Shown here: positions 26,451-52,054 of the stretch, in pieces
Position numbering within the stretch: position 1 is the first letter of the stretch
How the letters are laid out: every line of letters starts with the position of its first letter
Program-made: the position numbers and the translations under genes
The notes under the pieces: generated by a model
Told to the model about the DNA's origin: nothing
What the model saw: only the letters and a program-made list of their open reading frames with translations
Databases searched by the model: none
DNA from: Sedimentibacter hydroxybenzoicus DSM 7310
Lineage (GTDB): Bacteria; Bacillota; Clostridia; Tissierellales; Sedimentibacteraceae
Assembly (NCBI RefSeq): GCF_013403245.1
Contig: NZ_JACBNQ010000003.1
Span: 1-64,000 of the forward strand
DNA length: 64,000 bases
Reading direction: 5' to 3'

Positions 26451-26646
26451 AATGTTGAGGCAATGAGAAAGAAGAGTAAACTATAAAGAATTTATAGAGA
26501 GTCAGGTGTGGTGGAAACTGATAAAGAAGTATAGTTGAAGGGCGCTTTTGAGTCAATTATTTTAAGAGGATAAAGCAATGCTTTATCAAATAGGGTGGAA
26601 CCGCGGAATTAATCTTTCGTCCCTATGTGGGATGGAAGATTTTTTT
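26451..26646 (+). promoter_or_regulatory. T-box riboswitch leader (glycine)
   Basis: The leader has stem I elements (AGAGAG, GGTGTGGTGGAAACTGA), the specifier region with GGC (26541-26543) before GCTTTTGAG, the conserved T-box AGGGTGGAACCGCGG (26592-26606) and a terminator with AATCTTTCGTCCC pairing to GGGATGGAAGATT followed by U7. GGC is a glycine codon and agrees with the downstream glycyl-tRNA synthetase. Uncharged tRNA-Gly would pair with the specifier and the T-box bulge and prevent termination. Confidence 0.93.
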
Positions 26647-37401: not shown

Positions 37402-37733
37402 GGAGTAAATTATACAGTCGCATGCTTTTGCATGAGGAAAGTCCGTGCTCCGTAGAGCAGGGTGCCGGGTAACACCCGGTGAGGGTGACCTCAAGGATAG
37501 TGCAACAGAAATAGACCGCCGAGCAATCGGCAAGGATGGAAAGGTGAGGTAAGAGCTCACCGGCAATTAGGCGACTAATTGGCCATGTAAACCCCACCCG
37601 GAGCAAGACCAAAAAAGGACCTTGGAGTGGCTGCTCGTCACAGTCCAAATGGTAGGTTGCTGGAGCCTGTCGGCAACGTCAGGCGTAGATAGATGACTGT
37701 TTAAAACAGAACACGGCTTACATATTTACTCTA
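37402..37733 (+). ncRNA. rnpB: RNase P RNA, with 3' end supplied by an integrated element
   Basis: P1 is formed by GAGTAAAT (37403-37410) and ATTTACTC (37724-37731). The conserved GAGGAAAGTCC (37434-37444), ACAGAAA and the 3' block AGAACACGGCTTAC are all present. At about 332 nt it is a compact bacterial RNA. It cleaves the 5' leader of pre-tRNAs with RnpA. The element at 37710-49396 entered this 3' block, so the last bases and the terminator (37746-37773) now come from the element, and the RNA should remain functional. Confidence 0.95.
37710..37723 (+). repeat. attachment core, left (attL)
   Basis: AACACGGCTTACAT, identical to 49383-49396. The core is a part of the conserved rnpB 3' segment. 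Confidence 0.85.
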
Positions 37734-37745
37734 AACCTTATTATC

Positions 37746-37773
37746 AAAAAACATTGAGAAATCAGTGTTTTTT
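37746..37773 (+). terminator. element-supplied terminator of rnpB
   Basis: AAAAAACATTG and CAGTGTTTTTT form the stem (one G-T mispair), followed by GCTTTTT. It replaces the original terminator now found at 49424-49447. Confidence 0.65.
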
Positions 37774-37796
37774 GCTTTTTAAGCCCCTTTTGAAAA

Positions 37797-37813
37797 TTGG
37801 CTTATTGTCGGGT
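37797..37813 (+). repeat. 17-bp direct repeat, left copy
   Basis: TTGGCTTATTGTCGGGT is identical to 49264-49280. Both copies lie inside the element close to its ends (73 bp from the left core, 102 bp from the right core), as expected of recombinase arm sites. Confidence 0.7.
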
Positions 37814-37929
37814 GTAAATAAAACCGTAGTTTTGCGTTATTAACTGAGAAACTCTATAAGCTTATATATATTTTGTTGCATTATAACTCAGCTAAAATAG
37901 TATGTCAATACATAAATTGTGATTTTTTG

Positions 37930-37941
37930 TTGAAATATCAA
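37930..37941. repeat. TTGAAATWTCAA palindrome, site 1
   Basis: TTGAAATATCAA followed by TG. Related sites are at 46354-46365, 48176-48187 and 49304-49315, all in intergenic DNA of the element. See the note on this family in the findings. Confidence 0.6.
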
Positions 37942-37974
37942 TGAAAACAAAAAATAGAGCCTGTTGGCTCTATT

Positions 37975-38895
37975 TTATCCTATTAATTCACATACATCAT
38001 TTAAGTTTGTTGGTATTAAATGTGTGTATATTTCCAATGTTCTTATATCTTTATGCCCTGTATATTGGGCTATTTTTTTCAGGCTTACATTTTTCCTTAC
38101 AAGGTTCGTTATGAAACTATGCCTAAACGTATGTATCGTTATGTTAAAATCTGCTTTATCCTGAACACCGCTGTTTCTTACATACTTTTTTACAAGGTCA
38201 TTTAAAGCGTCCTTTCCTATTTTGAATACTTTCCCCGATATTCTGTTTTCTATTGCTAAATAATCTATAAGTGCTTGTCTAAGGCTCTTCGACAAAGGCA
38301 CAATCGAAACATTATCCGTTTTGGAATGTTTTATTGTAATTATATCTCTTACAAAGTCTATATCTTCCCAATTTAATGCTAAGACACTACTCCTTCTGCA
38401 ACCTGTACTACGTAAAAACTCTAAAATTGCGATATCTCTTATGTTATTTTGGGTTCTATCTTTCTTGGCTGTTTCAACTATTTTCTTTATGTCTTCTTCG
38501 TCAAGGTATTTTGGAAGATTCAATGTTTTTTCTTCATCGAAAATCTGATTTCTAACCCTTTTAAATGAAAAATCCTTTACAAAATTATCTTCTATAAACC
38601 CAAACTCTTCTAAAAAGTCATAGAACACTTTCAAAGAGTCATATTTTCTATCTACTGTCGATTTTTTATACTCTTTTGTCGTTATTTTCTCCGTCAGAAA
38701 GTTTCTGTAATTCATTATATGTGCTTTGCCTATGGAGTCTATATAGCATATAGAGGGGTATTTCTCTTTTATGTAGTTTTCAAAAATCAAGATATCTATT
38801 TTATAAGCTCCGATTGTGGAGTCTTTTAAACCTTTAATATTCAAGTAGGAAGGGAATTGCTCAATGGCCTTTTTTAAAGTTATTTTTTCCTTCAA
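37975..38895 (-). CDS. tyrosine recombinase/integrase 1
   Basis: The 306-aa protein has an N-terminal SAM-like core-binding domain (YLNIKGLKDSTIGAYKIDIL) and a catalytic domain with Arg in STGCRRSSVLAL, the Lys-containing IKHSKTDN loop, HTFRHSF, the GHKDIRT His and nucleophile Tyr in LEIYTHL. It ends 252 bp from the left core. It is a candidate for the enzyme that inserted the element in rnpB. The end of the gene is preceded by only weak terminator sequence. Confidence 0.92.
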   Translation of the reverse strand: MKEKITLKKAIEQFPSYLNIKGLKDSTIGAYKIDILIFENYIKEKYPSICYIDSIGKAHIMNYRNFLTEKITTKEYKKSTVDRKYDSLKVFYDFLEEFGFIEDNFVKDFSFKRVRNQIFDEEKTLNLPKYLDEEDIKKIVETAKKDRTQNNIRDIAILEFLRSTGCRRSSVLALNWEDIDFVRDIITIKHSKTDNVSIVPLSKSLRQALIDYLAIENRISGKVFKIGKDALNDLVKKYVRNSGVQDKADFNITIHTFRHSFITNLVRKNVSLKKIAQYTGHKDIRTLEIYTHLIPTNLNDVCELIG

Positions 38896-39289
38896 AAATA
38901 CCAGTCCCTTCGTCTTTGTTTTGGTTTTACATTTTGGTCTGTTAAGACCCCTCCAAAAACTAAGAAAGACTTTTCTTCTTAGGATATATTTATTTTACAT
39001 ATATATCAATGTATTAAATTAATCGATTAATTTCATAAGGACTTTTTATTAATCCTTATATTTATAAAATACTCAAAAAAAAGATTTATTTCAAGAGTAA
39101 GTTTTATTTTTGCGTGGTAATTTATGGTAGAACAATGTGCCGTTGAAATAACAGCAAAATAAGTTATACGTCTCTCCACAGAACATATAGTAAAATGTGA
39201 GGTTTTAAAGAAAACAAAGAAAAATCAAAAGAACTTAATAAAGGCCAAGAAAATACAAAGGAAGAATTTTTTGTGAAGAGGACGTTAAA
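38896..39289. other. divergent regulatory region of the element (int1 / radC)
   Basis: This 394-bp gap holds: CTAAGAA/TTCTTAG arms near 38960-38985; a perfect 18-bp palindrome AAATTAATCGATTAATTT at 39016-39033; an AAGGA/TCCTT inverted repeat near 39037-39058; and, at about 39114-39150, TGGTAATTTATGG...AACAATGT plus GTTGAAATAAC, which recur at 46314-46365. TATAGTAAAAT near 39186 may be the -10 region of the radC-like gene. It looks like the switch region between the leftward recombinase and the rightward genes. Confidence 0.5.
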
Positions 39290-39898
39290 ATGGAGAAAAG
39301 TATTATAAAAGAGAGAGTTCAGAAATATGGAGTAGATTCATTAATGGATTGGGAGTTATTGCATTTACTTACAAGTGTGGAACCAGAGGAATTACAGCAA
39401 TTTAAGGATTTTAATGATTTGAGAGACAAAATAGAAATGCTTAAAGCCACTGATATACAAAAACAAAAGGTTAGAGCAGTTTTTAGTATTTTCACAAGAA
39501 TCGGAAAAGAAAACACTAACAGGACTAAGATTTCAAGTCCGTCAGATGCCTATGAACTCCTGAAATGGGAAATGGAGCATCTAAAAAAGGAAGAATTTAG
39601 AGTTGTATTGCTTGACACCAAAAATCACGTAATAGATGTAAAAACGATAAGTGTCGGGAGTCTCAATTCTTCAATCGTTTCTCCGCAGATTGTTATGAAG
39701 GAAGCTATTATTAATTCAGCAAGTTCAGTTATTCTGGCTCACAACCACCCTTCAGGTAATTCAGAAAGTTCAAGAGAAGATTTTTTGCTGACCGAAAGAC
39801 TAATTCAATGTTTTAAGTTAGTAGGAATCAGCGTTATAGACCATATCATAATCGGGCAAAATAACTTTTACTCTTTTAAAGAAGACGGGTTAATTTAA
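39290..39898 (+). CDS. RadC-like JAB-domain protein
   Basis: The 202-aa protein has a short helix-hairpin-helix-like N-terminus and a JAB/MPN domain with the metal motif AHNHPSGNSESSREDF. RadC-like proteins are frequent on mobile elements; their enzymatic role is not established. GAGG is 8 nt before the ATG. It is the first rightward gene of the element. Confidence 0.88.
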   Translation: MEKSIIKERVQKYGVDSLMDWELLHLLTSVEPEELQQFKDFNDLRDKIEMLKATDIQKQKVRAVFSIFTRIGKENTNRTKISSPSDAYELLKWEMEHLKKEEFRVVLLDTKNHVIDVKTISVGSLNSSIVSPQIVMKEAIINSASSVILAHNHPSGNSESSREDFLLTERLIQCFKLVGISVIDHIIIGQNNFYSFKEDGLI

Positions 39899-40086
39899 GC
39901 TCAAAAACAAGTCAAACAAATGACTTGTTTTTTTTATGCTTGATAGAACACATTTTCGTTATGGCTTTGGGGACATCTGTATAACATATAATATGTAAAG
40001 GTGTTGGATATTAAATACCAACATAATATTTACTCAAATCCTTGTGGATTGTAATATTCATAAATCAAAACGCCACAATTTTTATA

Positions 40087-40287
40087 GCAGACAGCCCCAC
40101 GGGGAACAAGACGGTTTTACGTTCCGTTTCACTTCACATAAAACCTACAATTATATGCCCGCCCTTTGGGCGAACATATAATTGACTTGTTCCGCCGTTA
40201 TGCGACTGTCGGAGAAATTCCGCCTTTGGCGGCCAAAGCGGAGCTTTTAATTTCTCCTGTCGCATATACTGCCGTGGGTCTGTCTGC
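40087..40287 (+). other. 201-bp multi-branched palindromic region (candidate oriT, replication origin or RNA)
   Basis: Outer arms GCAGACAGCCCCACGG (40087-40102) and CCGTGGGTCTGTCTGC (40272-40287) pair at 15 of 16 positions. Inside: GGAACAAG/CTTGTTCC (40103-40110/40186-40193) enclosing ACGG/CCGT and AATTATATG/CATATAATT (40149-40157/40175-40183) capped by CGCCCtttGGGCG. A second arm has TATGCGAC/GTCGCATA (40199-40206/40259-40266), GGAGAAATT/AATTTCTCC (40211-40219/40249-40257), capped by CCGCCtttGGCGG and CTTTGG/CCAAAG. G+C is about 50% against about 30% around it. There is no long reading frame. Confidence 0.85.
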
Positions 40288-40361
40288 CGAGAGTTCAAGG
40301 TATTACGCAAATCAGAGTGTTTAGCATCACACTAATAGTAAGAAGAAAGGAGCATAAAACT

Positions 40362-40955
40362 ATGGCAAAAGGACGAAAAAGAACAACTAACTTGACCTTT
40401 ATGGAAAAGGATAAACGTCTATTTCAAGGTATTTCTAAGTGCGGTAAAGCAATAACACCTTTAATAGAGAAATATTACAACATTTCTCAAAAAAGAATTG
40501 ACCGCTTTGTAAAGCAAGGTTATTTAATAAAAAGTTCTGCCATTTGGGAAAATAAATCGATAATGTGCTATGGACTAAGCGAAAAAGGTAAGAAGTGGGT
40601 AAAGAACAATATTCACACCGTAAATAGCTTATATAAGCCAGCAAGAGGAGCTACTCACGACATAGCACTATTTCAAGAGTATAGCAAACTAAGCAGGAAA
40701 GAACAGGATTTATCCTTAACAGAAACAGATATATCACGACAGAACAAGCTAAGCTATGCCTCTCCCGTAGATTTGTATATCCCACCATATCAAGACGAAA
40801 GCGGCATCATAATTCAAGGACAAGCCATTGAAATTATTACCCCCGCTTATTCAAAAGATGACATTGAGAAGAAAGCAATCTATGTTGAAGAATGCCTAAA
40901 AACAAGTAATTTTAAACAAATTTTTGTAAATTACAAGCATACACGAGAACTCTAA
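40362..40955 (+). CDS. winged-helix protein, possibly replication-relaxation-like
   Basis: ATG 40362 has AAGGAG 8-9 nt upstream (197 aa). The first 90 residues form a winged helix (QKRIDRFVKQGYLIKSS ... CYGLSEKGKKWV). The second half (VDLYIPPYQDE, IIQGQAIEIITPAYSKDDIEKKA) recalls the restriction-endonuclease-like half of replication-relaxation family proteins of plasmids, but key residues are not certain. It begins 74 bp after the structured region and heads a run of four genes ending with the coupling ATPase. It may bind the structured DNA. Confidence 0.7.
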   Translation: MAKGRKRTTNLTFMEKDKRLFQGISKCGKAITPLIEKYYNISQKRIDRFVKQGYLIKSSAIWENKSIMCYGLSEKGKKWVKNNIHTVNSLYKPARGATHDIALFQEYSKLSRKEQDLSLTETDISRQNKLSYASPVDLYIPPYQDESGIIIQGQAIEIITPAYSKDDIEKKAIYVEECLKTSNFKQIFVNYKHTREL

Positions 40956-40972
40956 GGAAAGGAGAGCAAAAA

Positions 40973-41839
40973 ATGAATATGGTAAATAACAATCAACTAC
41001 GAATAAAGGATTTTCCGAAAGAAATAAGCAAGATAGCACAGGAACGATTCATAAAGGGCGATAATTTGATAATTAATTTAAAGGAAATCAATATTTCCCC
41101 AATACAGAGCGTTTTAATAGTCCTTTACTATTATGACTACTTAAGCTTTATCTATAAGGCAGGAAAAGGACTTATCCTATATAAACAGATAGAACGGTAT
41201 ATGAAAGAATACCAAAATATCAGCGTTAGGCATACAAGAAACGTAATAGAAGAAATGTATTTTTACAGATTAATTGAAAAGTCCAATAAATGGGGCAATT
41301 GCTATATAAAAATGACAAACCCTTCATATCGATTTTTCAGTAATGGGAAAAACCTTAAAAAATCGCAAGAAATCGGGAGCTTGAAGAGAAACATATTTAT
41401 AACCGAGCATTATTTGAGATACAAACCAGATATGAGAGAAAGCTTCATAAATATAATAGCAGGTCAAAATATATTACAAGCTGAAAGGCTGGAACAATTG
41501 GAAAAGCACAATATATTTCTTGAAAACATCACAAAGGATAAGGAAGACAACCTTATTATACACTTTGGGCTATTAGATATATCAAGCACAATAAATATTA
41601 ATACTATTAAGGAAAAAATCGAATTGATAAATAGCTTTTTCAACTTGAATTACAACAATATCCATTTCCGACTTAACATAAATACACAGGACAATACAAG
41701 GTATCAATTCCTAAAAAACAAGTGGAATAAATCAACCCCCTATGTAAAAGCCACACGATTTAAAAGCATTACATTCACCAATTTAAGCATTAAGAGGTAT
41801 TTCACTTTTAATGCGGATAGTCAAATTACAGAACAATAA
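40973..41839 (+). CDS. hypothetical element protein, 288 aa
   Basis: AAAGGAGAG precedes the ATG. The protein is basic, without signal peptide or membrane spans. A region near residues 60-105 (KQIERYMKEYQNISVRHTRN) could be a winged helix; the C-terminal half is beta-rich. No family recognised. It lies between the winged-helix gene and the 154-aa gene, with 17-18 bp gaps, in one operon with the coupling ATPase. Confidence 0.75.
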   Translation: MNMVNNNQLRIKDFPKEISKIAQERFIKGDNLIINLKEINISPIQSVLIVLYYYDYLSFIYKAGKGLILYKQIERYMKEYQNISVRHTRNVIEEMYFYRLIEKSNKWGNCYIKMTNPSYRFFSNGKNLKKSQEIGSLKRNIFITEHYLRYKPDMRESFINIIAGQNILQAERLEQLEKHNIFLENITKDKEDNLIIHFGLLDISSTININTIKEKIELINSFFNLNYNNIHFRLNINTQDNTRYQFLKNKWNKSTPYVKATRFKSITFTNLSIKRYFTFNADSQITEQ

Positions 41840-41857
41840 TCGAAAGGAGAAGAATAT

Positions 41858-42322
41858 ATGTTTAAACGATTTTTAAAAGAAAACAACATAGAAGAAAATA
41901 TCATTACAAGAGATATATACAGATTAATAAGAAAGATAGATTTAATAGATTACAGCCCAAGGACAAAATACACCATTTTTAATGAGTTAGCAAAAATTTA
42001 TATCGGAATAGAAAGGCATACAATGCTGTTGCTTGAAATGGGTGGAAAAGCCGAAAAAATGGGATACTTTTTAGAATTGGACATTTTAGAACGATTTATA
42101 AGATATTTGATTAAACATTTTAGATTCGAGCAGGATTTTATTAGTTTAGTCGAAAGAAACAAGAGAAATATCGAGTATGTATGTGGAACAGAGGGACAAG
42201 TCAATATTAACAATACTGTATTTGATACCATAGAAGTTGGAGAAGAAACAGAAAACATAAATACAGATGAAAAAGATGCTGAAATGAAGGACATATTAGA
42301 AATATTAGATTTAGAAGAATAA
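41858..42322 (+). CDS. hypothetical helical element protein, 154 aa
   Basis: AAAGGAG is well placed before the ATG. The product is helical for residues 1-110 and has an acidic tail (EVGEETENINTDEKDAE ... ILDLEE). No family is recognised. A short hairpin with U tract follows (42327-42350), so the coupling ATPase gene may be read less than its upstream neighbours. Confidence 0.7.
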   Translation: MFKRFLKENNIEENIITRDIYRLIRKIDLIDYSPRTKYTIFNELAKIYIGIERHTMLLLEMGGKAEKMGYFLELDILERFIRYLIKHFRFEQDFISLVERNKRNIEYVCGTEGQVNINNTVFDTIEVGEETENINTDEKDAEMKDILEILDLEE

Positions 42323-42326
42323 GCAT

Positions 42327-42350
42327 TCCCCCGTTAAGGGGGATTTGTTT
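42327..42350 (+). terminator. compact terminator or attenuator
   Basis: CCCCC-GTTAA-GGGGG followed by ATTTGTTTTT. It stands in the 57-bp gap before the coupling ATPase start. Confidence 0.65.
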
Positions 42351-42379
42351 TTACATTACTGATGAAAGGAGCAAAACGA

Positions 42380-44272
42380 ATGAAAATAGATTTTGATAAG
42401 CATAAAAGCGAGATTACAATACTTATAACGGTTTTAACCGTATTTCAAGCCTTACTAATAGGTGGGCTTTTTCTTAAAAAAGGAGCATTTATAATTTTTA
42501 CCATTATTACACTTGTCAGCGGCAGTTTCTCAATAGTTATAGAAAATAAGAAAAGGCTTTATATTTCAACAATACTTTATATTATTTATTTGCTTATATA
42601 TGTCAATAACATACTATTAGGTAATTTAGACGTCTTGTTGAAAATAATGCTTTACGTCTTGTTTGTTGTCCTATTCATAAGCTATATAAGTGTAAAGGAG
42701 ATAGACATAATAGAGCAAATAGAAAAGATAAAGCCATTGTTGAGCCTTAATTTTCGCAATCTCAGAAGAGACAAGCCTAAAAAGGGTGATGTTTGTATTT
42801 GTAAGACAAAAAACAAGCCTGTTTATATTCCCATAAAAGATAGATTTCTCCACACTCTGATACTTGGTCCTACGGGGTGTGGTAAAACATCACAGTCCAT
42901 TTTACCTATGATTAATCAGGATATGGCATTTAATGAATGTGGAATAACGGTTATAGAACCAAAGGGAGACTTAGCAGAAAAGGTTTATGCTATGGCACAG
43001 CATTACGGCAGGAAGGTAATATATTTTAATCCAACATTGGATTCCTGTCCAACATTTAACCCCTTGTATGGAGATGAAGAAGATGTAGTAGAGAATATGG
43101 CAACGACATTTAAAATGCTGAAACCTGATTCCCCTCAGTTTTTTCAGGATATGGAAGAACAGCTAATAAGGAATGCCTTGAAACTGCTTAAAAGATTAAA
43201 AGGAAATCAGGCAACTTTAATAGATTTGAACAATTTAATGTTTGATATTGGCGGTATAGGAAAAAACCTGATAAACAATTTTGAGGAACATAATAAAAAT
43301 AAAGTTCAAAGTTTATCATTAAAACAGGAAAACGAGGAAATTATCAGCTATTTTAAGCAGAATTACTTCAATGAAAATGACCAGACTTTTGAAAACACAT
43401 CAGGAGTTCGCACACAGGTTGCGAAAGTCGTTTCAAATAAGTATTTACGTAAGGTTTTAAATCCTCAAAATGGTAAAAGTGATATTGATTTTTCTAAACA
43501 TTTGGAAGGTTGCGGCATTATTACTATTTCCACGGAGCAAGGAAAACTAAGGGATTTAGGCTCTTTCTTAGGGTATTTTATTATCTTAAACTTCCAATCG
43601 GCTGTTTTTAAGAGAGGGGGAGACGAAGATACCAGAAGACCACATTTTTTATACATAGATGAGTTTCAGACCTATGCCAATTCAGGATTTTCCGATATGC
43701 TGACACAGGGACGCTCTTATAGAGTTGCTTCCACCATTGCCACACAAAACAGGGCATTAATAGGAATGGGGAGCGGAAAGGACGGGAAAGATTTTATTGA
43801 ATTGGTTTCAACTAATGCCCGAAATGTTATTATTTATCCCGGTGGAAACTATTCAGATGCCAAATATTACAGCGACCAATTCGGAGAAATACTGACTAAA
43901 AGAAAAAGCACAGGAACGAGCAAACAAAGGTTCAATATACTTAATGGGAATAGCAGTAATACCGCAACGGACAATAAAAGTTTTTCTGAGCAATGGGAAA
44001 ATCGTATCAGACCAGCGGACATTATTTACAGACCATTCGGAGAAATCATATATTGTATTATAAAAAATAACACCATACAACTGCCTAATGTCGGTAAAGT
44101 GTCATTTCTCTCAGAAGAGCTAAACGGAAAGCTTTCTAAAATGGTGAGGGAAAATAAGGAAATCCTTGCCGCAGGAATTAACCCTGATTTTTATAGAAAT
44201 GAAAAAGGGGAGTTTGTAAAAAGCATAGATGAAATATTGAGAGATAATATAAAGATAGATAGTATGATTTAA
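42380..44272 (+). CDS. VirD4/TraG-type coupling ATPase
   Basis: ATG 42380 has AAAGGAG 9 nt upstream. The 630-aa protein has three or four N-terminal membrane spans (about 14-105), Walker A GPTGCGKT (163-170), VIEPKGDLAEKVYAMA, and Walker B FLYIDEF with TQGRSYRVASTIATQNRA. These are hallmarks of type IV coupling proteins that bring DNA-relaxase complexes to a transport channel. No relaxase or other channel gene is recognised in the element, so the protein may work with a helper's machinery or with an unrecognised partner. A terminator follows at 44289-44317. Confidence 0.9.
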   Translation: MKIDFDKHKSEITILITVLTVFQALLIGGLFLKKGAFIIFTIITLVSGSFSIVIENKKRLYISTILYIIYLLIYVNNILLGNLDVLLKIMLYVLFVVLFISYISVKEIDIIEQIEKIKPLLSLNFRNLRRDKPKKGDVCICKTKNKPVYIPIKDRFLHTLILGPTGCGKTSQSILPMINQDMAFNECGITVIEPKGDLAEKVYAMAQHYGRKVIYFNPTLDSCPTFNPLYGDEEDVVENMATTFKMLKPDSPQFFQDMEEQLIRNALKLLKRLKGNQATLIDLNNLMFDIGGIGKNLINNFEEHNKNKVQSLSLKQENEEIISYFKQNYFNENDQTFENTSGVRTQVAKVVSNKYLRKVLNPQNGKSDIDFSKHLEGCGIITISTEQGKLRDLGSFLGYFIILNFQSAVFKRGGDEDTRRPHFLYIDEFQTYANSGFSDMLTQGRSYRVASTIATQNRALIGMGSGKDGKDFIELVSTNARNVIIYPGGNYSDAKYYSDQFGEILTKRKSTGTSKQRFNILNGNSSNTATDNKSFSEQWENRIRPADIIYRPFGEIIYCIIKNNTIQLPNVGKVSFLSEELNGKLSKMVRENKEILAAGINPDFYRNEKGEFVKSIDEILRDNIKIDSMI

Positions 44273-44288
44273 GGGCTTATGCCTAAAA

Positions 44289-44317
44289 TAAAACCACCCC
44301 TTGTTTTGAGGGGTGAT
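44289..44317. terminator. terminator between convergent genes
   Basis: AACCACCCCTTG and GAGGGGTGATTT form a G+C-rich stem with T-rich flank, after the coupling ATPase and before the end of the leftward stalk-domain gene. Confidence 0.7.
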
Positions 44318-44338
44318 TTGTTAAATAAACTATCAATA

Positions 44339-45346
44339 TTAATCTGGCAATATAATTATATCTACACCACTTCCAACATCATCAATAAAAACAATTTTTG
44401 TTTTGCCAAAAGTATAAGTTTTACCATACTCTGGCTCTTTGTTGTTTTTTACACAGTTGTCAAAGTAGTCAAAGATAGCTTTTGCATCTTTTGTATTTCC
44501 GGTATAATATTTTAATGCTTCTATTGTTGTATTCATTATAGTTGCAACTCTTGGATACGTTTCTTCATCGTATGTCATTCCCCAATCTCTAATACGAATT
44601 AAAGGATTGTCATTATCATCTCTTATAATTTTCAATGGAGCATTTGGATCAGATAATCCACTACTACTGGGTTCTGTAAGAGTTCCACCTTGTATAACTT
44701 TTCCAGTATCTTCTAATGCTTTATTTAACAGTGCATAATCTTCATCTAATGTGCTACCTTTTTTTCTGGTTCCTAATATAGAATTTTCATTAGAACCTAT
44801 AATTTCCCAACGATTTATTCCCTTATTATTAGTAGTGTAATTTATAATGTCTTTCCCATATTCAATCCCGTCAATAATAATACCTTCTTCTGGTTCTTCC
44901 AATGGCAATATTTGAACATCTATGCTCTTAATTTGAACATTTTTAATATTATTTTCTTCATTATAACCTACCCAATAACCCAGAACCTCTGAAACTAGTC
45001 TTATAGGAACAAAAGTTGTATTATTTGAAATAATCGCAGGGGCATCTATTCTTATCTCACTTCTTCCTCTATATATTATATCACTACCAATTTTTATTTT
45101 TGTGTGTCCGTCAATAATAACAGTCGTATTTTTTTGGTCCCAATCAACCTTTTTACCCAACTCTTGGCTAATAATTCTAAGAGGAACCATAGTTCTGCCA
45201 TTCTCAATAAATGGTGCTCCCATTTCCTCTGGAATATCCATTTTGACATCATTTAAATAGATTTCAATTTTACTTTCACTTGCTGATACAACGGAAAATG
45301 ACATAATCATCATAATAAATAAAATTAAGCCTAATACTTTTTTCAT
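44339..45346 (-). CDS. exported protein with copper-amine-oxidase N-terminal-like (stalk) domain
   Basis: I choose the ATG at 45346 (GGAGGG 6-7 nt upstream) over that at 45364. The 335-aa protein has a signal peptide (MKKVLGLILFIMMIMSFSVVSAS) and two stalk-domain units (RTMVPLRIISQELGKKVDWDQ; TTFVPIRLVSEVLGYWVGYN). The C-terminal half (about 140-335) is not recognised, and ends in a possible domain with IRDWGMTYDEETYPRVA. It is a cargo candidate: it acts outside the cell and has no link with transfer or recombination. Confidence 0.85.
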   Translation of the reverse strand: MKKVLGLILFIMMIMSFSVVSASESKIEIYLNDVKMDIPEEMGAPFIENGRTMVPLRIISQELGKKVDWDQKNTTVIIDGHTKIKIGSDIIYRGRSEIRIDAPAIISNNTTFVPIRLVSEVLGYWVGYNEENNIKNVQIKSIDVQILPLEEPEEGIIIDGIEYGKDIINYTTNNKGINRWEIIGSNENSILGTRKKGSTLDEDYALLNKALEDTGKVIQGGTLTEPSSSGLSDPNAPLKIIRDDNDNPLIRIRDWGMTYDEETYPRVATIMNTTIEALKYYTGNTKDAKAIFDYFDNCVKNNKEPEYGKTYTFGKTKIVFIDDVGSGVDIIILPD

Positions 45347-45485
45347 CTCTTCCCTCCGAGTCATATTATTATATTAGTGCTTTTTTTAACAAGCACCCTT
45401 ATATATTACCAAGAGTGTCGAATATTGTCAACCAGGTAAATCCTGAAATGGTTGTTTTTGCTAAGTTATAGGTTTGTGCAGAGAA

Positions 45486-45510
45486 AAAAGAAACCCTTTC
45501 AGGTTTCTTC
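45486..45510 (-). terminator. terminator of the 208-aa gene
   Basis: On the minus strand GAAGAAACC and GGTTTCTTT form a hairpin followed by a U-rich tract, just after the stop at 45517. Confidence 0.7.
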
Positions 45511-45516
45511 AAATGT

Positions 45517-46143
45517 TTAAGCAACTTCGCTTAATTCTTCTTTCTTACTTTTTGTCATTACGTTAATTCGTCTTAATTTTGAAACGTATGTAAGTAATAC
45601 ATTGTCCTCAATCTTAAAGACCTTATTTGTTTTCTGTTCATAATAAGGGGTTTCAATTATGTCCCTTATTGCTTCCAAGTCCTTAACGTCGGTTCTATCG
45701 GCTATTAAAAACTTTACTAACTGCCACCTTCCAAATACCTTTTTTGGTATTACTATACGGCTATTGTCCATTTCTACAAAAGGACTATATACATTCACAC
45801 ATTTTTTGTTTTTGACATTTAGAAAAACCATAACACAGAAATCCATTGCCAGAAAGACAACAATTGTATTCAAAACAGCTAAATCGTATATGTCCTTTAA
45901 TGAATGCCCACAAAAGTCCATAATTGCCTGAATTGAAGTCAATAGTTTTTTATCTATTGGTTTTTCAAAGCTCAACTCATATACATCAGTTGTTTTTCCC
46001 CAGCGGAGAGAATTGCTTATGTCTGTTATCTCTATTGTGTATTCCTTGATTCTAATATTCAAGTTTTCTTCCTTGAAGTAGTAGTCATTGCCTACTTCCA
46101 TTTGTGCTAAATCTTTATTAATCTTATTATTTTTCTTTATCAT
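45517..46143 (-). CDS. hypothetical element protein, 208 aa, with long leader
   Basis: TAGGAGAT stands 7 nt before the ATG. The product shows no signal peptide. A hydrophobic stretch near residues 85-108 (DLAVLNTIVVFLAMDFCVMVFL) may be a buried core or a membrane-touching segment, flanked by charged sequence. No family is recognised. It is a cargo candidate. The transcript probably begins at about 46275 (TGCTATAAT) and thus has a leader of over 120 nt with several hairpins. Confidence 0.7.
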   Translation of the reverse strand: MIKKNNKINKDLAQMEVGNDYYFKEENLNIRIKEYTIEITDISNSLRWGKTTDVYELSFEKPIDKKLLTSIQAIMDFCGHSLKDIYDLAVLNTIVVFLAMDFCVMVFLNVKNKKCVNVYSPFVEMDNSRIVIPKKVFGRWQLVKFLIADRTDVKDLEAIRDIIETPYYEQKTNKVFKIEDNVLLTYVSKLRRINVMTKSKKEELSEVA

Positions 46144-46290
46144 TTTACAATCTCCTATAAGTTTTTTCAGTAAGACATACTCTTACCATCCAAGTCGTAC
46201 GACCCTCCCTCAATAGTATAGATTAGATTGTATTGTTGCGGCATTTCCGAATGCCAGTATTTAGCACTTAATTAAATTATAGCAGATATT
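46144..46290 (-). promoter_or_regulatory. structured leader of the 208-aa gene
   Basis: On the minus strand an extended -10 box TGCTATAAT is followed by GGCATT/AATGCC, the palindrome GTCGTACGAC, and GTAAGA/TCTTAC hairpins, then the SD. The succession of small hairpins in over 120 nt of untranslated RNA suggests a regulatory leader, but it fits no riboswitch class I know. Confidence 0.35.
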
Positions 46291-46353
46291 TTTTTATCCG
46301 CACTATTTTCGCTATGGTAATTTATGGAACAATGTAAAAATCTTATTTTTTTA

Positions 46354-46365
46354 TTGAAATATCAA
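46354..46365. repeat. TTGAAATWTCAA palindrome, site 2
   Basis: TTGAAATATCAA within ATTGAAATATCAATT. It is preceded by TGGTAATTTATGGAACAATGT (from 46314), a motif also found at 39114 with a 3-bp insertion. The site is about 90 bp upstream of the 456-aa gene. Confidence 0.6.
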
Positions 46366-46455
46366 TTAAAAATTTTTCATAAGACACCTAAAAATTATAA
46401 TTTCCTTGCCTTCTTACTATAATAAAATAAAACTCAAATGACAGGGGGTATTACG

Positions 46456-47826
46456 GTGATAATAACAGAGAAAACAGCCGAGCAATGGACAATTAGCGAT
46501 ACATTACAGGGACGCACATACTTCATATACAATTATTCATTTTTCAATAAATATAAAGATTATGGGTATGCCAATATAAATGCGTTTGTAGAAGAATATT
46601 TCTTCAATAAAATAGATAAAGATTTACGTGGAAAATTGGAAATAATTAAGAAGAAAGAGGACAAAGAGGACGGAATCAGAAGAAGAAACGAAAGCTATAT
46701 CAAAAAGCTTAAAAAAGAGCAGATTATAAGGCTTAAAGCAGAGCTAAGAGAAGAACACCCGTATATGACAGATAAAGAAATTGAGAAAATGGCTTATGAT
46801 ATACGAGACACAAAGCATAAAATCAATTGGCAGTATCTTAATAAAATGGACGAGCAGGAAATAAGTGTATTAAAGAAACGGCTGAAATTAAAGAAAAGAG
46901 ACATAGCAAAAATAATTGATGCTTTTGAATTAGAAGAAAATGAGTTCCAGACCACAAGAGATTTTATAATCTACGCACGAAAGATTAATATTTCCAATTT
47001 ATTCAATGCGAAAAACATATTAAACAACTACGGTGAATGTCCGTTTATAAAGAATAATAAATGTGTTATCACAGTCCGTAAGCAACACTTTAAGATTTTG
47101 AGCTTTGATCCTGATGAAAAAGCAGGTATAGCCTTTGATTTGTTCGATTTGCTCTCTCTTTATGGTATTGGAATAATGGATTTAATAAGAATTAAGAATA
47201 TTGTTATTACTACCTACAATGAATATCTGACCGAAATAGAAAAAGTAAATGAACAACTGACAAATGAGAAGAAAAGATTTAAAAGAATACTGAAAGAGAT
47301 TAAGAAACTTGATAAAAACAATAGAGCCATATACAATTACCTTAAAAATCACCTTACTTTTTTGGAGATTATTATAAAAGAGGGGGAAGAGAGGATTTGT
47401 AGCACAAAATACTTACAAGAAGACGGAAAAGCAATATTTTTTAACTCCTGCCGATATTTAGGGAAAAAATATAACACACGATATCAGAAAGTTTCAGAGG
47501 AAATAAACCTGTTATGCGTTTTAGGAATATTAAGCAAAATTACAGATATGACCGAAGATATTGTCCATAATTACGAACACGACTATAATATCAATTATTT
47601 AGTGCTGAATGATTTGAATTGGGATATTGTAGAAGAAAGGATAAAGGTCTTAAAAGAAAACAAAATAACCCCAAAGAATATAAACTTTAACAGCATAAAG
47701 AATGTATTCGGGGAAGATTTGGTGGAGCAGGTGTTCCAAAAGAAAAAAGACAAGCAAGCGGCAGAGATAAAACAGGAAGAAAGGAAAAGGGGCTTTATAG
47801 TCCGTGATGAAGATGTGCCATTTTAA
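46456..47826 (+). CDS. element protein with SSB-like C-terminal tip (replication protein candidate), 456 aa
   Basis: GTG 46456 has GGGGG 7 nt upstream; the ATG at 46438 has no SD. The protein is highly charged with long helical segments (about 55-160). At about 190-240 it reads YGECPFIKNNKCVITVRK and then FDLFDLLSLYG, which recalls the layout of a CHC2 primase zinc finger that has lost its second metal half. The C-terminus ends in RDEDVPF, the same pattern as the D-D-D-I-P-F tip of single-stranded DNA-binding protein, which recruits replication and repair enzymes. I propose a replication or single-strand DNA role; this is inference. Confidence 0.7.
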   Translation: MIITEKTAEQWTISDTLQGRTYFIYNYSFFNKYKDYGYANINAFVEEYFFNKIDKDLRGKLEIIKKKEDKEDGIRRRNESYIKKLKKEQIIRLKAELREEHPYMTDKEIEKMAYDIRDTKHKINWQYLNKMDEQEISVLKKRLKLKKRDIAKIIDAFELEENEFQTTRDFIIYARKINISNLFNAKNILNNYGECPFIKNNKCVITVRKQHFKILSFDPDEKAGIAFDLFDLLSLYGIGIMDLIRIKNIVITTYNEYLTEIEKVNEQLTNEKKRFKRILKEIKKLDKNNRAIYNYLKNHLTFLEIIIKEGEERICSTKYLQEDGKAIFFNSCRYLGKKYNTRYQKVSEEINLLCVLGILSKITDMTEDIVHNYEHDYNINYLVLNDLNWDIVEERIKVLKENKITPKNINFNSIKNVFGEDLVEQVFQKKKDKQAAEIKQEERKRGFIVRDEDVPF

Positions 47827-48272
47827 CAGCATAAAAAAACCTTATTGGAATGTGTTAATTCCAATAAAAAAATTACTTTTAAGGGGACTATATATATACC
47901 TAAAAGAAAAGATGTTTTAATGATTTTTGAAAATAAAAATATATTTTATTCATTAACATCTTATAGGGCATAAAGCCCTACATCAATATAATAAAAAAGA
48001 ACAGGGACAACAAACATAAGCGACAAATAAAATATAAAGTGAGTCGTAAAATTGATTTTTTCCTTCTGCTTTTATGAACCCCTTAAATTGATTTTAAGCA
48101 AAGTTAATATTTTTATAGTCCAATCGCTCGCAATGTGTTTGAACAATGCTTAAAACATAAAAATGCACCTCAATGTTGAAATTTCAATGTGTGTAATATT
48201 ATATTTGCTTTTGATACTTCTATAATGTTAACATATTAACTATATAGAAGGGGGCAAGATAGGTATCTTGCC
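47827..48272. other. 446-bp intergenic region of the element
   Basis: A stem TTATTGGAAT/ATTCCAATAA (about 47841-47866) has A8 on the right and T7 on the minus-strand side, so it can terminate leftward transcription from integrase 2. The remaining sequence is AT-rich without reading frames, except that 48176-48187 has the perfect palindrome TTGAAATTTCAA (site 3), within CAATG-TTGAAATTTCAA-TGTG. Confidence 0.5.
48176..48187. repeat. TTGAAATWTCAA palindrome, site 3
   Basis: TTGAAATTTCAA, a perfect 12-bp palindrome, 86 bp beyond the 3' end of integrase 2. Confidence 0.6.
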
Positions 48273-49193
48273 CTAACTTATTTTTTTAGCACCTACTAAT
48301 GGAAACTTTTCTACGGCATTTTTTAGGTGGTTTATGTTTGTATGTGTATATATCGTTGTGGTATTAATGTCTTCGTGTCCAAGTAATTCTTTAATCTCCA
48401 ATAAATCGACCCCCTGCTGATGTAATAGAGAAGCGAAAGCGTGTCGGCATTTATGGAAACTATAATCTTTGCTTCCTAATCCACATTTTTTTAAGTATGT
48501 TTTAAACAGGACGTGCATATTACTCATACTCATTCTTGTACCCCGACTACTGATGATTATAGCCCTGTTTGTAAGTGGTAGTCTTTCGTTTAGGTAATTC
48601 CATAAATCTGTTTTTAATGGTTCGACGAGTGGAATTACTCTTGATTTATTTCCCTTTCCTTTTCTAATGGTTATGGTGTCTCTTCCGAAGTCTATATCAT
48701 CAAAATTGAGACCATTCACTTCCGCACGTCTTCCACCCGTAAAGATAAACAGTTCGACCATAACTTTGTCTCTTAATCGATTTTCTGGAAATCTGGCATA
48801 CTTTTCGGGAGCATCCATTAATCGTTGTAATTCATTCACCTTTATATAAATTGGCAATTTCTTCTCTTCTTTTGGTGCTTTAATGGGAGCCATAGGATTC
48901 TTATCTATGTATTCCGTCTCAATCAAATATTTAAAAAATGATGCCAGACAATGTATCTTTCTTCTTACCGTATTTGTTGCAAATTTTTTGTTTTCTTTGA
49001 GAAACGTAATAAATCTTCTTAATATCGCTGTTGTAATTAAATTGATTTGAGGCTCTACCTGAATAATGTTAAGAAACTCTATGATATTGCTGAAATCATA
49101 TTTATAACTCTTTACTGTTGCTTCGGAACAATTGTTTTCAGATTTTTGATAGTCTAAAAAATATTCAAAATAAATCTCTAATTCAGATTTCAT
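48273..49193 (-). CDS. tyrosine recombinase/integrase 2 (XerD-like)
   Basis: The 306-aa protein has a core-binding domain (YFLDYQKSENNCSEATVKSY) and catalytic residues Arg in TGGRRAEVNGL, Lys in RKGKGNKSRVIPL, HKCRHAFASLL, GHEDINTT and Tyr in TIYTHTN. It is not a duplicate of integrase 1: they share the fold but little sequence. It starts 190 bp inside the right core, the position typical for an element integrase, and so is the better candidate for the enzyme acting at attR. Confidence 0.92.
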   Translation of the reverse strand: MKSELEIYFEYFLDYQKSENNCSEATVKSYKYDFSNIIEFLNIIQVEPQINLITTAILRRFITFLKENKKFATNTVRRKIHCLASFFKYLIETEYIDKNPMAPIKAPKEEKKLPIYIKVNELQRLMDAPEKYARFPENRLRDKVMVELFIFTGGRRAEVNGLNFDDIDFGRDTITIRKGKGNKSRVIPLVEPLKTDLWNYLNERLPLTNRAIIISSRGTRMSMSNMHVLFKTYLKKCGLGSKDYSFHKCRHAFASLLHQQGVDLLEIKELLGHEDINTTTIYTHTNINHLKNAVEKFPLVGAKKIS

Positions 49194-49263
49194 TATATTA
49201 CTTACCCTCCTTGATATTGAAAAGATTGAAAGGTAAGAGCATTTAGTTATGTACTTATTCGTT

Positions 49264-49280
49264 TTGGCTTATTGTCGGGT
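49264..49280 (+). repeat. 17-bp direct repeat, right copy
   Basis: TTGGCTTATTGTCGGGT, identical to 37797-37813 at the other end of the element. Confidence 0.7.
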
Positions 49281-49303
49281 TTTAAAAAATCCGTCTAACA
49301 TAA

Positions 49304-49315
49304 CTGAAATTTCAA
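49304..49315. repeat. TTGAAATWTCAA palindrome, site 4
   Basis: CTGAAATTTCAA followed by TG, one base from the perfect palindrome of site 3, between integrase 2 and attR. Confidence 0.5.
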
Positions 49316-49382
49316 TGTTTTTAAATGCTCATTTTCCAATGGTTTCAATGCCATAAAGAGCTTACTGTATTAATAGCGATAT

Positions 49383-49396
49383 AACACGGCTTACAT
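49383..49396 (+). repeat. attachment core, right (attR)
   Basis: AACACGGCTTACAT, identical to the left core in rnpB. Directly downstream lies TATTTACTCTC, which is the expected natural P1 strand of rnpB. Confidence 0.85.
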
Positions 49397-49423
49397 TATT
49401 TACTCTCTACAAACATATAAAAT

Positions 49424-49447
49424 ACTCGCGTTATGCGAGTTTTTTTT
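49424..49447 (+). terminator. displaced original rnpB terminator
   Basis: ACTCGC-GTTAT-GCGAGT followed by eight T. It is a perfect rho-independent terminator 28 bp after the right core with no gene to terminate, as expected of the original rnpB 3' end. Confidence 0.8.
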
Positions 49448-49520
49448 ATGTTTTTGCACTTATATTATAGGTGACTGATATCAAATCAGAGATTTGGGTC
49501 ATCTGCCTATACAAATCGTA

Positions 49521-49546
49521 ACAATTTTTGAAATACTGCATATAAT
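49521..49546 (+). promoter_or_regulatory. possible late-sporulation promoter
   Basis: AC (49521-49522), 16 bp, CATATAAT (49539-49546) matches the loose sigma-K consensus AC-N16/17-CATANNNT. TATAAT in the same place would also serve sigma A, though without a good -35. Confidence 0.25.
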
Positions 49547-49574
49547 GGTACAACCTCAAAAAAGGGGTGATATT

Positions 49575-49667
49575 ATGTATATACTTCCATGGTTTTTACT
49601 TGGAGTCGGTTACGGCAGATGTTCAAGAGTGCGCGGAGCACAGGGAAGACGCTGTTGTAGACGATAG
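49575..49667 (+). CDS. very small basic Cys-containing protein, 30 aa
   Basis: ATG 49575 follows AAAGGGGTG at a good distance. The 30-residue product starts hydrophobic (MYILPWFLLGVGYG) and ends in a basic half with three Cys (RCSRVRGAQGRRCCRR). A strong terminator follows 9 bp after the stop, so the unit is a complete minimal gene. Very small proteins of this kind are known from spore coats, but this one matches none I know. Confidence 0.55.
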   Translation: MYILPWFLLGVGYGRCSRVRGAQGRRCCRR

Positions 49668-49676
49668 TGGTATAAA

Positions 49677-49701
49677 AAAAAGACGCTTCGGCGTCTTTTT
49701 A
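49677..49701. terminator. bidirectional terminator
   Basis: AAAAAGACGC-TTCG-GCGTCTTTTT: a 10-bp stem with the stable UUCG loop and T-tracts on both sides. It serves the 30-aa gene and the leftward MFS gene, whose stop codon overlaps it. Confidence 0.9.
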
Positions 49702-50925
49702 GATTGCTGTATTTTTAACCGCAGCTTCGAATATTAATTTTTTATATATTACAATAATTGTAATCAATATGATACTTGCTGAAATCACCCATATAGTCGG
49801 AATAGTAAAATAATTTATCAATATGCTGTAAAGCAGGGAACCGGTTAAGCCGCCTATTTGTATAACCAATGAATAAACCGACAGTACTGAGGCTCTTACT
49901 TCATTGGGAATTTCTCTGTTCAAAATAACACCTTCAGGTATATTGGCCATTCCAAATAATAGGTAAATCATTGAATAGGAAAACATAAAAATAGGTATAT
50001 TCGTTTGAATTGCTGTGATTATCATTGATACGGCAATGAGCGTTCTTAATATTAGATACATTTTATATGTATTAAATTTATATTTCTTTATCAGCTTATT
50101 TGAGCCGATACTTCCTAATGTGGCGGCAGCAAAATATAAAAATGCCATAACGCCTAAAAGTCCCATGAAACTGTCATTAGGCAACAGTGATAAAAAATGC
50201 GGCTGCCAAAATGTTTCTAAGCTGCTTAAGAAGAATCCCGTTGAAAAAACCGATATAAATATGCATATAATTGTAGAGTTTTTTACTACTATTGATGAAC
50301 TGTTTATTATATGCTGCTTAATAGTTATGCGATTTTCTTTGTTATTGTCAGCTGATTCCGTTATAAAAATAAATCCAAGTATTACGACAACAGATGCCAG
50401 AATAAGTCTTAGAATTATATTTAAGTCATAAATGCTTGATAAGGAAAAATATGTATTTGTAATTTTAGGCAACATACCACCTGTCAATGCACCTGTTGAC
50501 ATTCCAAGTGCTTCCAAAACATTGAGTCTTGTGGTTATGTTGTGCAGCTTGTCTTTTCCGTAATTATCTATGTAATAATCAATAAACAATGCATCAAAAG
50601 ATCCGGAGGAGAGTGCCCTGCTTAAACCGTAAAACATCATTCCTATACTTAACAATATGAAACCTTTTCCGAACAATAATATTATAAAACTTACCAAAGA
50701 AACTATTATCGACAAACAAAATGATTTTTTCCTGCCGAAAACATCGGCAATAATTCCCGTTGGAAGCTCTAATACAATGACAGTAAAAGCATAAATACCA
50801 AGAATTAAAGAAAGGTTGCTCAAAGTTGCTCCCTTATCAAGGAGAAGTAAGCTAATTACGGGTGTTAATATTCCGGTTAAAAAAGAGTTGAGAAATAGAA
50901 TTATTGAATATATTTTCAGCTTCAT
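49699..50925 (-). CDS. MFS-family exporter
   Basis: ATG 50925 (AAGGAA 7 nt upstream) is preferred over 50964. The 408-aa protein has twelve predicted spans, the MFS loop motif between spans 2 and 3 (GIIADVFGRKKSF) and a central cytoplasmic loop. It resembles drug/proton antiporters. The substrate is unknown. Confidence 0.85.
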   Translation of the reverse strand: MKLKIYSIILFLNSFLTGILTPVISLLLLDKGATLSNLSLILGIYAFTVIVLELPTGIIADVFGRKKSFCLSIIVSLVSFIILLFGKGFILLSIGMMFYGLSRALSSGSFDALFIDYYIDNYGKDKLHNITTRLNVLEALGMSTGALTGGMLPKITNTYFSLSSIYDLNIILRLILASVVVILGFIFITESADNNKENRITIKQHIINSSSIVVKNSTIICIFISVFSTGFFLSSLETFWQPHFLSLLPNDSFMGLLGVMAFLYFAAATLGSIGSNKLIKKYKFNTYKMYLILRTLIAVSMIITAIQTNIPIFMFSYSMIYLLFGMANIPEGVILNREIPNEVRASVLSVYSLVIQIGGLTGSLLYSILINYFTIPTIWVISASIILITIIVIYKKLIFEAAVKNTAI

Positions 50926-51794: not shown

Positions 51795-51905
51795 ATGTAA
51801 CTCTTCTACCATCCAGACTTTACTGTCGGTATTGGAATCTCACCAATTCAACCTTTCGGCTCGCGGACTTTACCGCCGGTCGGGAATTTCACCCTGCCCT
51901 GAAGA
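51795..51905 (-). promoter_or_regulatory. FMN riboswitch
   Basis: On the minus strand the RFN signature blocks are present in order: CAGGGCAGGGTGAAATTCC, CCGACCGGCGGTAAAGTCC, GCGAGCC, TTGGTGAGATTCCAATACC, CGACAGTAAAGTCTGGATGG. Binding FMN would favour the terminator at 51735-51764 and shut off ribU. Confidence 0.96.
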
Positions 51906-52054
51906 TATTTACAAATTTATTATATCATAATTTTTATAGTTGTAAACATTTTTTTGAAATTTTAAAAAAATATATACGTTTATCATAAATTCAGATATTC
52001 ATAATATTATAGATTAAGGGGGACAAGATTAAGATTAACCGTGGGGAGGAATTT

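Follow-up and report, generated by a model that had tools for sequence, protein, structure and literature searches.

The stretch of DNA analysed here (the window) comprises the first 64,000 nucleotides of contig NZ_JACBNQ010000003.1 of Sedimentibacter hydroxybenzoicus DSM 7310 and carries an 11.67-kb insert at the 3' end of rnpB, the gene for the RNase P RNA. A search with model RF00010 found a full-length class A RNase P RNA on the plus strand at 37402–37736 (282.1 bits, model positions 1–367). Near its 3' end lies the 14-mer AACACGGCTTACAT (37710–37723; left core, attachment site attL), which occurs again as an exact direct repeat at 49383–49396 (right core, attR), giving a core-to-core distance of 11,673 bp. 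No third site was found in the window with up to two mismatches (shuffled sequences average 0.24 at this tolerance), and the 3.8-Mb genome contains no exact copy beyond these two. From mononucleotide composition, 0.0003 exact core copies are expected in a window and 0.02 in a genome; a chance repeat was rejected on these grounds.

The similarity of the two ends extends beyond the core. The sequence ATTTACTCT follows both cores, immediately at the left end and with an additional T in between at the right end, and the direct repeat therefore equals the 3' part of the target RNA gene: an exact core of 14 nt and, shifted by 1 nt, ATTTACTCT. The element-side copy (37724–37732, plus strand), the 3' strand of helix P1, is complementary to the 5' end of the host rnpB, GGAGTAAAT, with one G-U pair. 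The left tail as a whole consists of ATTTACTCTAAACC and a hairpin at 37745–37774, a 13-pair stem with a T-rich tail (fold z −4.95), which is the element-carried replacement of the rnpB terminator. On the right, the displaced host P1 3' strand (49398–49406) precedes the displaced original terminator (49424–49440), a stem followed by 8 T (fold z −5.33). The end duplex of rnpB amounts to −15.7 kcal/mol with the left tail and −16.7 kcal/mol with the right tail, and the corresponding values in genome G247, described below, are −22.5 and −21.1 kcal/mol. The interrupted rnpB thus remains complete in silico, with a full-length RF00010 match and similar duplex energies with either tail. Among the rnpB tails read from 22 same-genus genomes, CTCTCTACA of the right flank occurs in three and the element-side left tail in none, and this comparison led us to regard the right tail as host-type and the left tail as foreign. 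An earlier note on this DNA had described a 14-bp core flanking an 11.7-kb insert, a left copy completing rnpB with a new terminator (placed at 37746–37773), a right copy followed by the apparent original P1 strand and terminator (placed at 49424–49447), and an element that supplies the last bases of the RNA. These descriptions hold, with the terminators delimited as given above.

A tyrosine recombinase gene adjoins each att site. IntL (37975–38895, minus strand; PF00589, 7.5e-30) and IntR (48273–49193, minus strand; PF00589, 1.1e-34) are both 306 aa long and keep intact catalytic motifs (TGxRR, HxxRH, GH, and IYTH), and are only distantly alike (25–31%). In addition, a 31-nt direct repeat (87%) lies near both ends, at 37797–37827 (left copy, TTGGCTTATTGTCGGGT...) and 49264–49294 on the plus strand. 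Measured from start to start, its part TGGCTTATTGTCGGGT lies inwards of the left core by 88 nt and of the right core by 118 nt, and a like repeat is present at both ends in G247, 90 and 128 nt from the core. These subterminal repeats probably serve as arm sites.

We consider it highly probable that 37710–49396 is a site-specific integrative element that enters the 3' end of rnpB by tyrosine-recombinase exchange and rebuilds the gene with a tail borne by attP, the attachment site of the circular form. In the proposed mechanism, IntL and/or IntR would bind the core and the arm repeats, and strand exchange would take place in a 9-nt interval within CACGGCTTA, between the circular attP and the rnpB site attB. 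The attP would carry a copy of the rnpB tail, namely the core, the P1 3' strand, and the terminator; because of this copy, rnpB would be rebuilt at attL and the original tail displaced to attR. Excision would reverse the integration and release a circle. From this anatomy we infer the recombination chemistry, the excision of the circle, how IntL and IntR divide the work, and the transfer.

The same locus was examined in relatives. The RF00010 search of 61 genomes detected rnpB in 59, and the surroundings of rnpB were taken from 22 same-genus and 2 same-family genomes, one genome per species. In 17 of the 22 same-genus loci, the contig that carries rnpB continues into the major facilitator superfamily (MFS) and/or RibU genes of the window's right flank; in the other five, the contig ends within 1.7 kb (L036, L045, and L053) or rnpB is reversed (L043 and L049). 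Neither IntL, IntR, nor a phage-type integrase was found within up to 8 kb behind rnpB in these 24 loci (E 1e-5). The long gaps between rnpB and the MFS gene in L044 and L051 contain other genes and no integrase. The rnpB tail pattern occurs once in each of 21 of the 22 same-genus stretches and not at all in that of L043, which has a variant tail. In the family of G247, three genomes (G030, G060, and G237) show the order ZnR-rnpB-NlpC-FolD without an insert, and G247 itself shows ZnR-rnpB-insert-NlpC-FolD; in a fourth member, G047, the 10 kb examined behind rnpB contain other genes. The empty rnpB that the earlier note suggested seeking is thus present, by gene order, in 17 same-genus loci and in three members of the family of G247, and no relative was found that lacks the element and has two cores, nor was an rnpB terminator at odds with 49424–49447 encountered.

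Some observations on rnpB itself were made in this survey. In G024 (L043) and G013 (L049), rnpB is reversed relative to its neighbours, with RibU upstream and nadE or its neighbours downstream, which suggests an inversion at rnpB. G027 has two full rnpB matches (C175:864-1205 and C12:9348-9690), reflecting either contamination or a true second copy. Low rnpB scores were obtained for G217, which has masked bases, and for G216, whose copy begins at a contig edge.

Elements of the same kind recur at rnpB in independent hosts. Those beyond the window were found via an integrase search, and their number is therefore uninformative on frequency. IntL-type recombinases adjoin rnpB in six of six cases: the window, G247, G218 ([Clostridium] ultunense DSM 10521), a Marinisporobacter metagenome-assembled genome (L091), G849, and G1008. 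Four genomes have an IntR homologue beside the far core, namely G247, C. ultunense, and, in damaged form, G241 and G849. The rnpB of G247 has CAGAACACGGCTTA at its end with IntL next to it, and the same 14-mer occurs 31.8 kb further on beside IntR. C. ultunense has a 24-bp repeat around 50.3 kb with both recombinases. L091 matches the window in gene order, with rnpB, IntL (50%), RadC (54%), and then the homologues of orf3, orf4, and orf5. In G849, an IntL homologue is located 0.7 kb after rnpB, and another contig carries an IntR homologue (44%, residues 7–253) beside a 67-nt copy of the rnpB tail. The IntL homologue of G1008, which lies beside the rnpB tail, is 64% identical to that of G849, and in G241 one core lies at rnpB and the damaged IntR homologue adjoins another. 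As a side observation, inverted core letters (such as AATAAGCCGAG) lie behind the rnpB terminator in the elements of G849 (L168) and G1008 (L181), and perhaps represent an extra recombinase site.

A tree of 35 recombinases, which does not include the later-found G1008, placed the IntL proteins of the window, G247, L091, C. ultunense, and G849 in one group (100/99), those of C. ultunense and G849 on branches that the program flagged as long. The IntR proteins of the window, G247, and C. ultunense also group together (99/98). IntL is rare in the genomes searched. Among 249 genomes of the order (E 1e-30), it was found in the own genome, G247 (56%), and, remotely, C. ultunense (37%); among 391 genomes of the class (E 1e-25), only in the own genome; and among 398 genomes of the phylum (E 1e-25), in 10 including the own, the other nine at 28–34% identity. 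The genome collection gave 17 loci, two of which align with almost the full query at no less than 34%, and the G849 IntL as the query found matches in 2 of 19 genomes of its own order. IntR had matches in 33 further genomes among the 249 of the order (E 1e-40), the nearest being those of G247 (65%), G241 (42%, with one internal stop), and C. ultunense (40%), and all others falling below 40%. For the next-nearest IntL-like integrases (8 genomes), no rnpB was present in the 10–14 kb stretches from G872, G652, G671, and G625. Sixteen further IntR-like loci (L061–L076, about 3.9 kb each) showed no rnpB tail by pattern.

Integrases of another type were found at the same site. The sample of 61 genomes yielded G039 and G043, and a separate RF00010 search of 20 genomes yielded G220. 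In G039 (L151, C45 248-1786), a 388-aa phage-type integrase lies directly behind rnpB, followed by frames that read as repressor-, ImmA-, and antirepressor-like, and a second core is located on another contig (C42:29003). In G220, a phage-type integrase survives as a 104-aa remnant behind rnpB, and a second core is found at a distance of 31.7 kb. The IMG/VR provirus IMGVR_UViG_3300035388_000034 contains a 3' rnpB fragment that runs off the contig (147 bits), an integrase 59% identical to that of G039, and a second core, and the viral contigs L165 and L167 show the rnpB tail in an attR-like context. In the tree, the integrases of G039 and the provirus group at 100/100, apart from IntL and IntR. 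These data indicate that at least two unrelated integrase types repeatedly use the 3' end of rnpB. G043 (L004) probably bears the scar of a lost prophage, a 56-aa remnant (70%) of the same phage-type integrase located 74–241 nt past the rnpB core. Two "Bacteriophage sp." records weakly matching the rnpB tail were set aside, one having DnaJ-like and isochorismatase-like frames by reading and the other both conserved ends of an rnpB.

The comparison of the core pairs narrowed the position of the exchange. The five pairs, AACACGGCTTACAT in the window, CAGAACACGGCTTA in G247, a 24-mer in C. ultunense, a 25-mer in G241, and the 67-mer in G849, have only C(A/T)CGGCTTA in common, which we take to be the 3' strand of RNase P RNA helix P4. 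Merging of the rnpB copies with the same inner sequence, with both conserved motifs needed, gave 61 distinct copies, 54 of them with at least 1300 nt downstream. The variable base of P4 matches its 5'-strand partner in all 61 (CCGAG/CTCGG in 34, CCGTG/CACGG in 24, and CCGGG/CCCGG in 3). The P4 pairing is also kept in the interrupted rnpB of the window, G247, C. ultunense, L091, G241, G220, G039, and G849. In G220, the variable base is A in attL but T in the far copy, so the exchange there lay to its right and the pair was kept.

Ten reading frames of at least 150 aa in the element were tested against protein families (Pfam, NCBIfam, and PHROGs). Besides the two recombinases, the element encodes on the plus strand a RadC-family protein (39290–39898; PF04002, 4e-44), which has homologues in L091 and G247, followed by orf3 (40317–40955), orf4 (40973–41839; 33% over 328 columns), and orf5 (41858–42322; 40% over 144 columns), all three with homologues in L091. 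The next gene, also on the plus strand, encodes an ATPase resembling the type IV coupling protein (T4CP) TraG/VirD4 (42362–44272; PF02534, 1.1e-14). A protein with a copper amine oxidase N-terminal-like domain (44339–45364, minus strand; PF07833, 2.8e-26), part of the cargo, has a homologous stretch in the element of G247. It is followed by orf8 (45517–46143, minus strand), which had no family above the cut-off, and orf9 (46438–47826, plus strand), which weakly resembles the C-terminal part of primase-like proteins (26%, residues 243–439, E 4.5e-8), the match being a 659-aa protein that is primase-like by reading. Five of the ten proteins (orf3, orf4, orf5, orf8, and orf9) were assigned to no family. 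The structure model of orf9 has a pLDDT (predicted local distance difference test) of 38.5 and the low-confidence model of orf3 one of 50.9, with only the N-terminal, winged-helix-like part of orf3 modelled better; neither was of sufficient quality for a structure search. A terminator-like hairpin (37951–37976, minus strand) lies behind IntL. Elsewhere in the window, a flavin mononucleotide riboswitch precedes a RibU-like gene (51797–51910, minus strand) and a T-box leader occurs at 26454–26627 (plus strand), both ordinary.

The contents bear on the kind of element. Proteins encoded by large Bacillales plasmids match the T4CP-like ATPase at 61% identity along 76% of its length, and the 109 plasmid records matched comprise 85 non-mobilizable, 14 conjugative, and 10 mobilizable ones. 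On the two plasmids inspected, both typed as non-mobilizable, a RecD-like helicase, a type IA topoisomerase, and a replication-relaxation protein are neighbours of the homologue, and CpaB and secretion ATPases lie near it in the Geobacillus plasmid; these surroundings are suggestive of an untyped transfer system. No close DNA relative of the insert (37724–49382) was found among the plasmid records. The matches of IntL in phage and plasmid records are all below 60% identity, those listed being 25–31%, and viral contigs gave one distant match (28%). No VirB4-type ATPase family, the mark of an integrative and conjugative element (ICE), was recognised among the ten proteins, nor were capsid, portal, or terminase genes, as would be expected in a prophage. 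From the T4CP-like gene, the element may possibly be transferred as a mobilizable one.

Alternatively, the element could be neither conjugative nor mobilizable but a defective prophage, or a satellite, with rnpB as its site. Phage-type integrases do use rnpB in related hosts, and no relaxase family of Pfam, NCBIfam, or PHROGs was found among the ten proteins alongside the T4CP-like one. In PHROGs, however, the only matches besides integrases are to the RadC-like family, to families without a known function, and, weakly and through the T4CP-like protein, to a terminase-like one (E 4.7e-4); apart from this last match no phage structural family is present, and the ATPase is closest, among plasmid records, to plasmid conjugation proteins. 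We regard this alternative as unlikely.

Tandem accretion, in which two unrelated elements were inserted successively at rnpB and the middle core was lost, would make the two-recombinase layout accidental. It would fit the divergence of IntL and IntR from each other, the damage to IntR in G241 and G849, and the stretch after the far core of G849, which resembles a left end again, as in a tandem array. In contrast, the same pair occupies the same places in the window, G247, C. ultunense, and G849 (there on two contigs), and in the window and G247 both ends share the subterminal repeat. In the IntL group as well as in the IntR group, moreover, C. ultunense branches outside the pair of window and G247, with long branches. 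In our judgement, tandem accretion is quite unlikely. We give almost no credence to a duplicated tail, that is, a second core arising as a chance or recombined rnpB fragment in ordinary chromosomal DNA, as the G+C content of the insert might suggest, against which stand the 0.02 exact copies expected per genome, the recombinases at both ends, the empty sites in relatives (IntL or IntR in 0 of 22 same-genus loci), and the same architecture in other hosts.

The structure of both ends, the empty sites by gene order, and the recurrence in independent hosts are observations made in silico. Several other observations weigh against an integrative element entering rnpB in the proposed way. The G+C content of the insert (31.6%) is not distinct from that of the flanks (33.8 and 31.0%), and neither a relaxase nor an excisionase was recognised; an origin of transfer was not recognised either, no search for one having been made. 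A same-strain empty site and an excised circle are absent from the available data. The element tail of C. ultunense pairs less well than the alternative, its end duplex being weaker (−16.3 versus −20.3 kcal/mol). The far end of the element is not visible in L091, where the contig ends first, or in G1008. The IntR frame of G849 is without the GH and tyrosine motifs, and in G241 the IntR homologue has an internal stop and no IntL is present in the 4.1 kb to the contig end. The layout also varies: the IntL gene points towards rnpB in the window, G247, and L091 but has the same direction as rnpB in C. ultunense, G849, and G1008, and this difference in orientation implies that the left end was rearranged at least once.

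An outward-facing promoter-like site (TTGACA-17-TATAAT, 12 of 12 consensus bases) is located between the left repeat and IntL (37880–37908, minus strand). L091 has a similar site (10 of 12) at the same place, and in G247 TTGCTT-17-TATAAT was read by eye and is not listed by the scan. Sites with at least 9 consensus bases numbered 5 in the part of the window scanned (2.2 in shuffles), the scanned stretches of G247 and L091 gave 2 (1.5) and 1 (1.3), and promoter-like sites of such a score arise by chance too. No promoter-like site was listed on the minus strand of 49150–49750, upstream of IntR. One could imagine a class of rnpB-directed elements with two recombinases whose expression is wired through the junction: transcription from 37908–37880 would run antisense to rnpB in the integrated state and into IntR only in the circle, so that the element would sense its own state and could tune RNase P. 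We find this idea distinctly doubtful.

The tRNA and transfer-messenger RNA (tmRNA) genes are textbook docking sites for mobile DNA. Genomic islands, ICEs, and integrative and mobilizable elements enter the 3' end of tRNA or tmRNA genes by means of tyrosine recombinases, as PMC10111431 describes for tRNA genes. The present element resembles the islands of tRNA and tmRNA genes in having the core inside the gene, a tail rebuilt by attP, an integrase beside att, and the displaced tail at the other end. It differs from them in the target, rnpB, in the crossover within the P4 strand of the catalytic core, and in the recombinase at each end. With the rnpB prophages (G039, the remnant of G220, and the IMG/VR provirus) it shares the same rnpB tail as the core and the rebuilding of the tail at attL; the prophages differ in a separate clade of phage-type integrases, a single integrase by rnpB, phage genes, and TTTGCCACC- or TTTGCCAACG-type repeats near attL. 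More than one tyrosine recombinase is also present in Tn554-type and other multi-recombinase elements, with the genes arranged in tandem. In the present element, one recombinase gene is found at each end, and an RNA gene is the target.

The earlier note had likened the integration to that in tRNA or tmRNA genes, and the repeat of the 3' part of the gene, the target that stays complete in silico, the intact integrases at the att sites, and the empty sites bear this out. Its remark that rnpB is rarely reported as a target is consistent with the open-licence literature searched, in which no report of rnpB as an integration site was found; an earlier report may exist. As to its proposal to survey rnpB 3' ends for other integrase genes, IntL-type recombinases were found there in five further hosts and phage-type integrases in G039, the remnants of G220 and G043, and the IMG/VR provirus. 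The recombinase at each end, the crossover in the P4 strand, and rnpB as a recurrent target are supported additions to that note.

The finding thus seems to be a known strategy at a target that we did not find described, with a family of two-recombinase elements bound to rnpB. Since both these related elements and unrelated phages use the same spot, rnpB appears to be a docking site for mobile DNA that has been overlooked. The data indicate that rnpB, which likewise encodes a universal and essential RNA, is used in the manner of the tRNA and tmRNA genes, with the exchange inside a highly conserved ribozyme helix. rnpB can be added to the sites examined in surveys of mobile elements, as the site of an element family with a very constrained core. 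How the end of an essential ribozyme can be exchanged harmlessly by an element thereby becomes testable.

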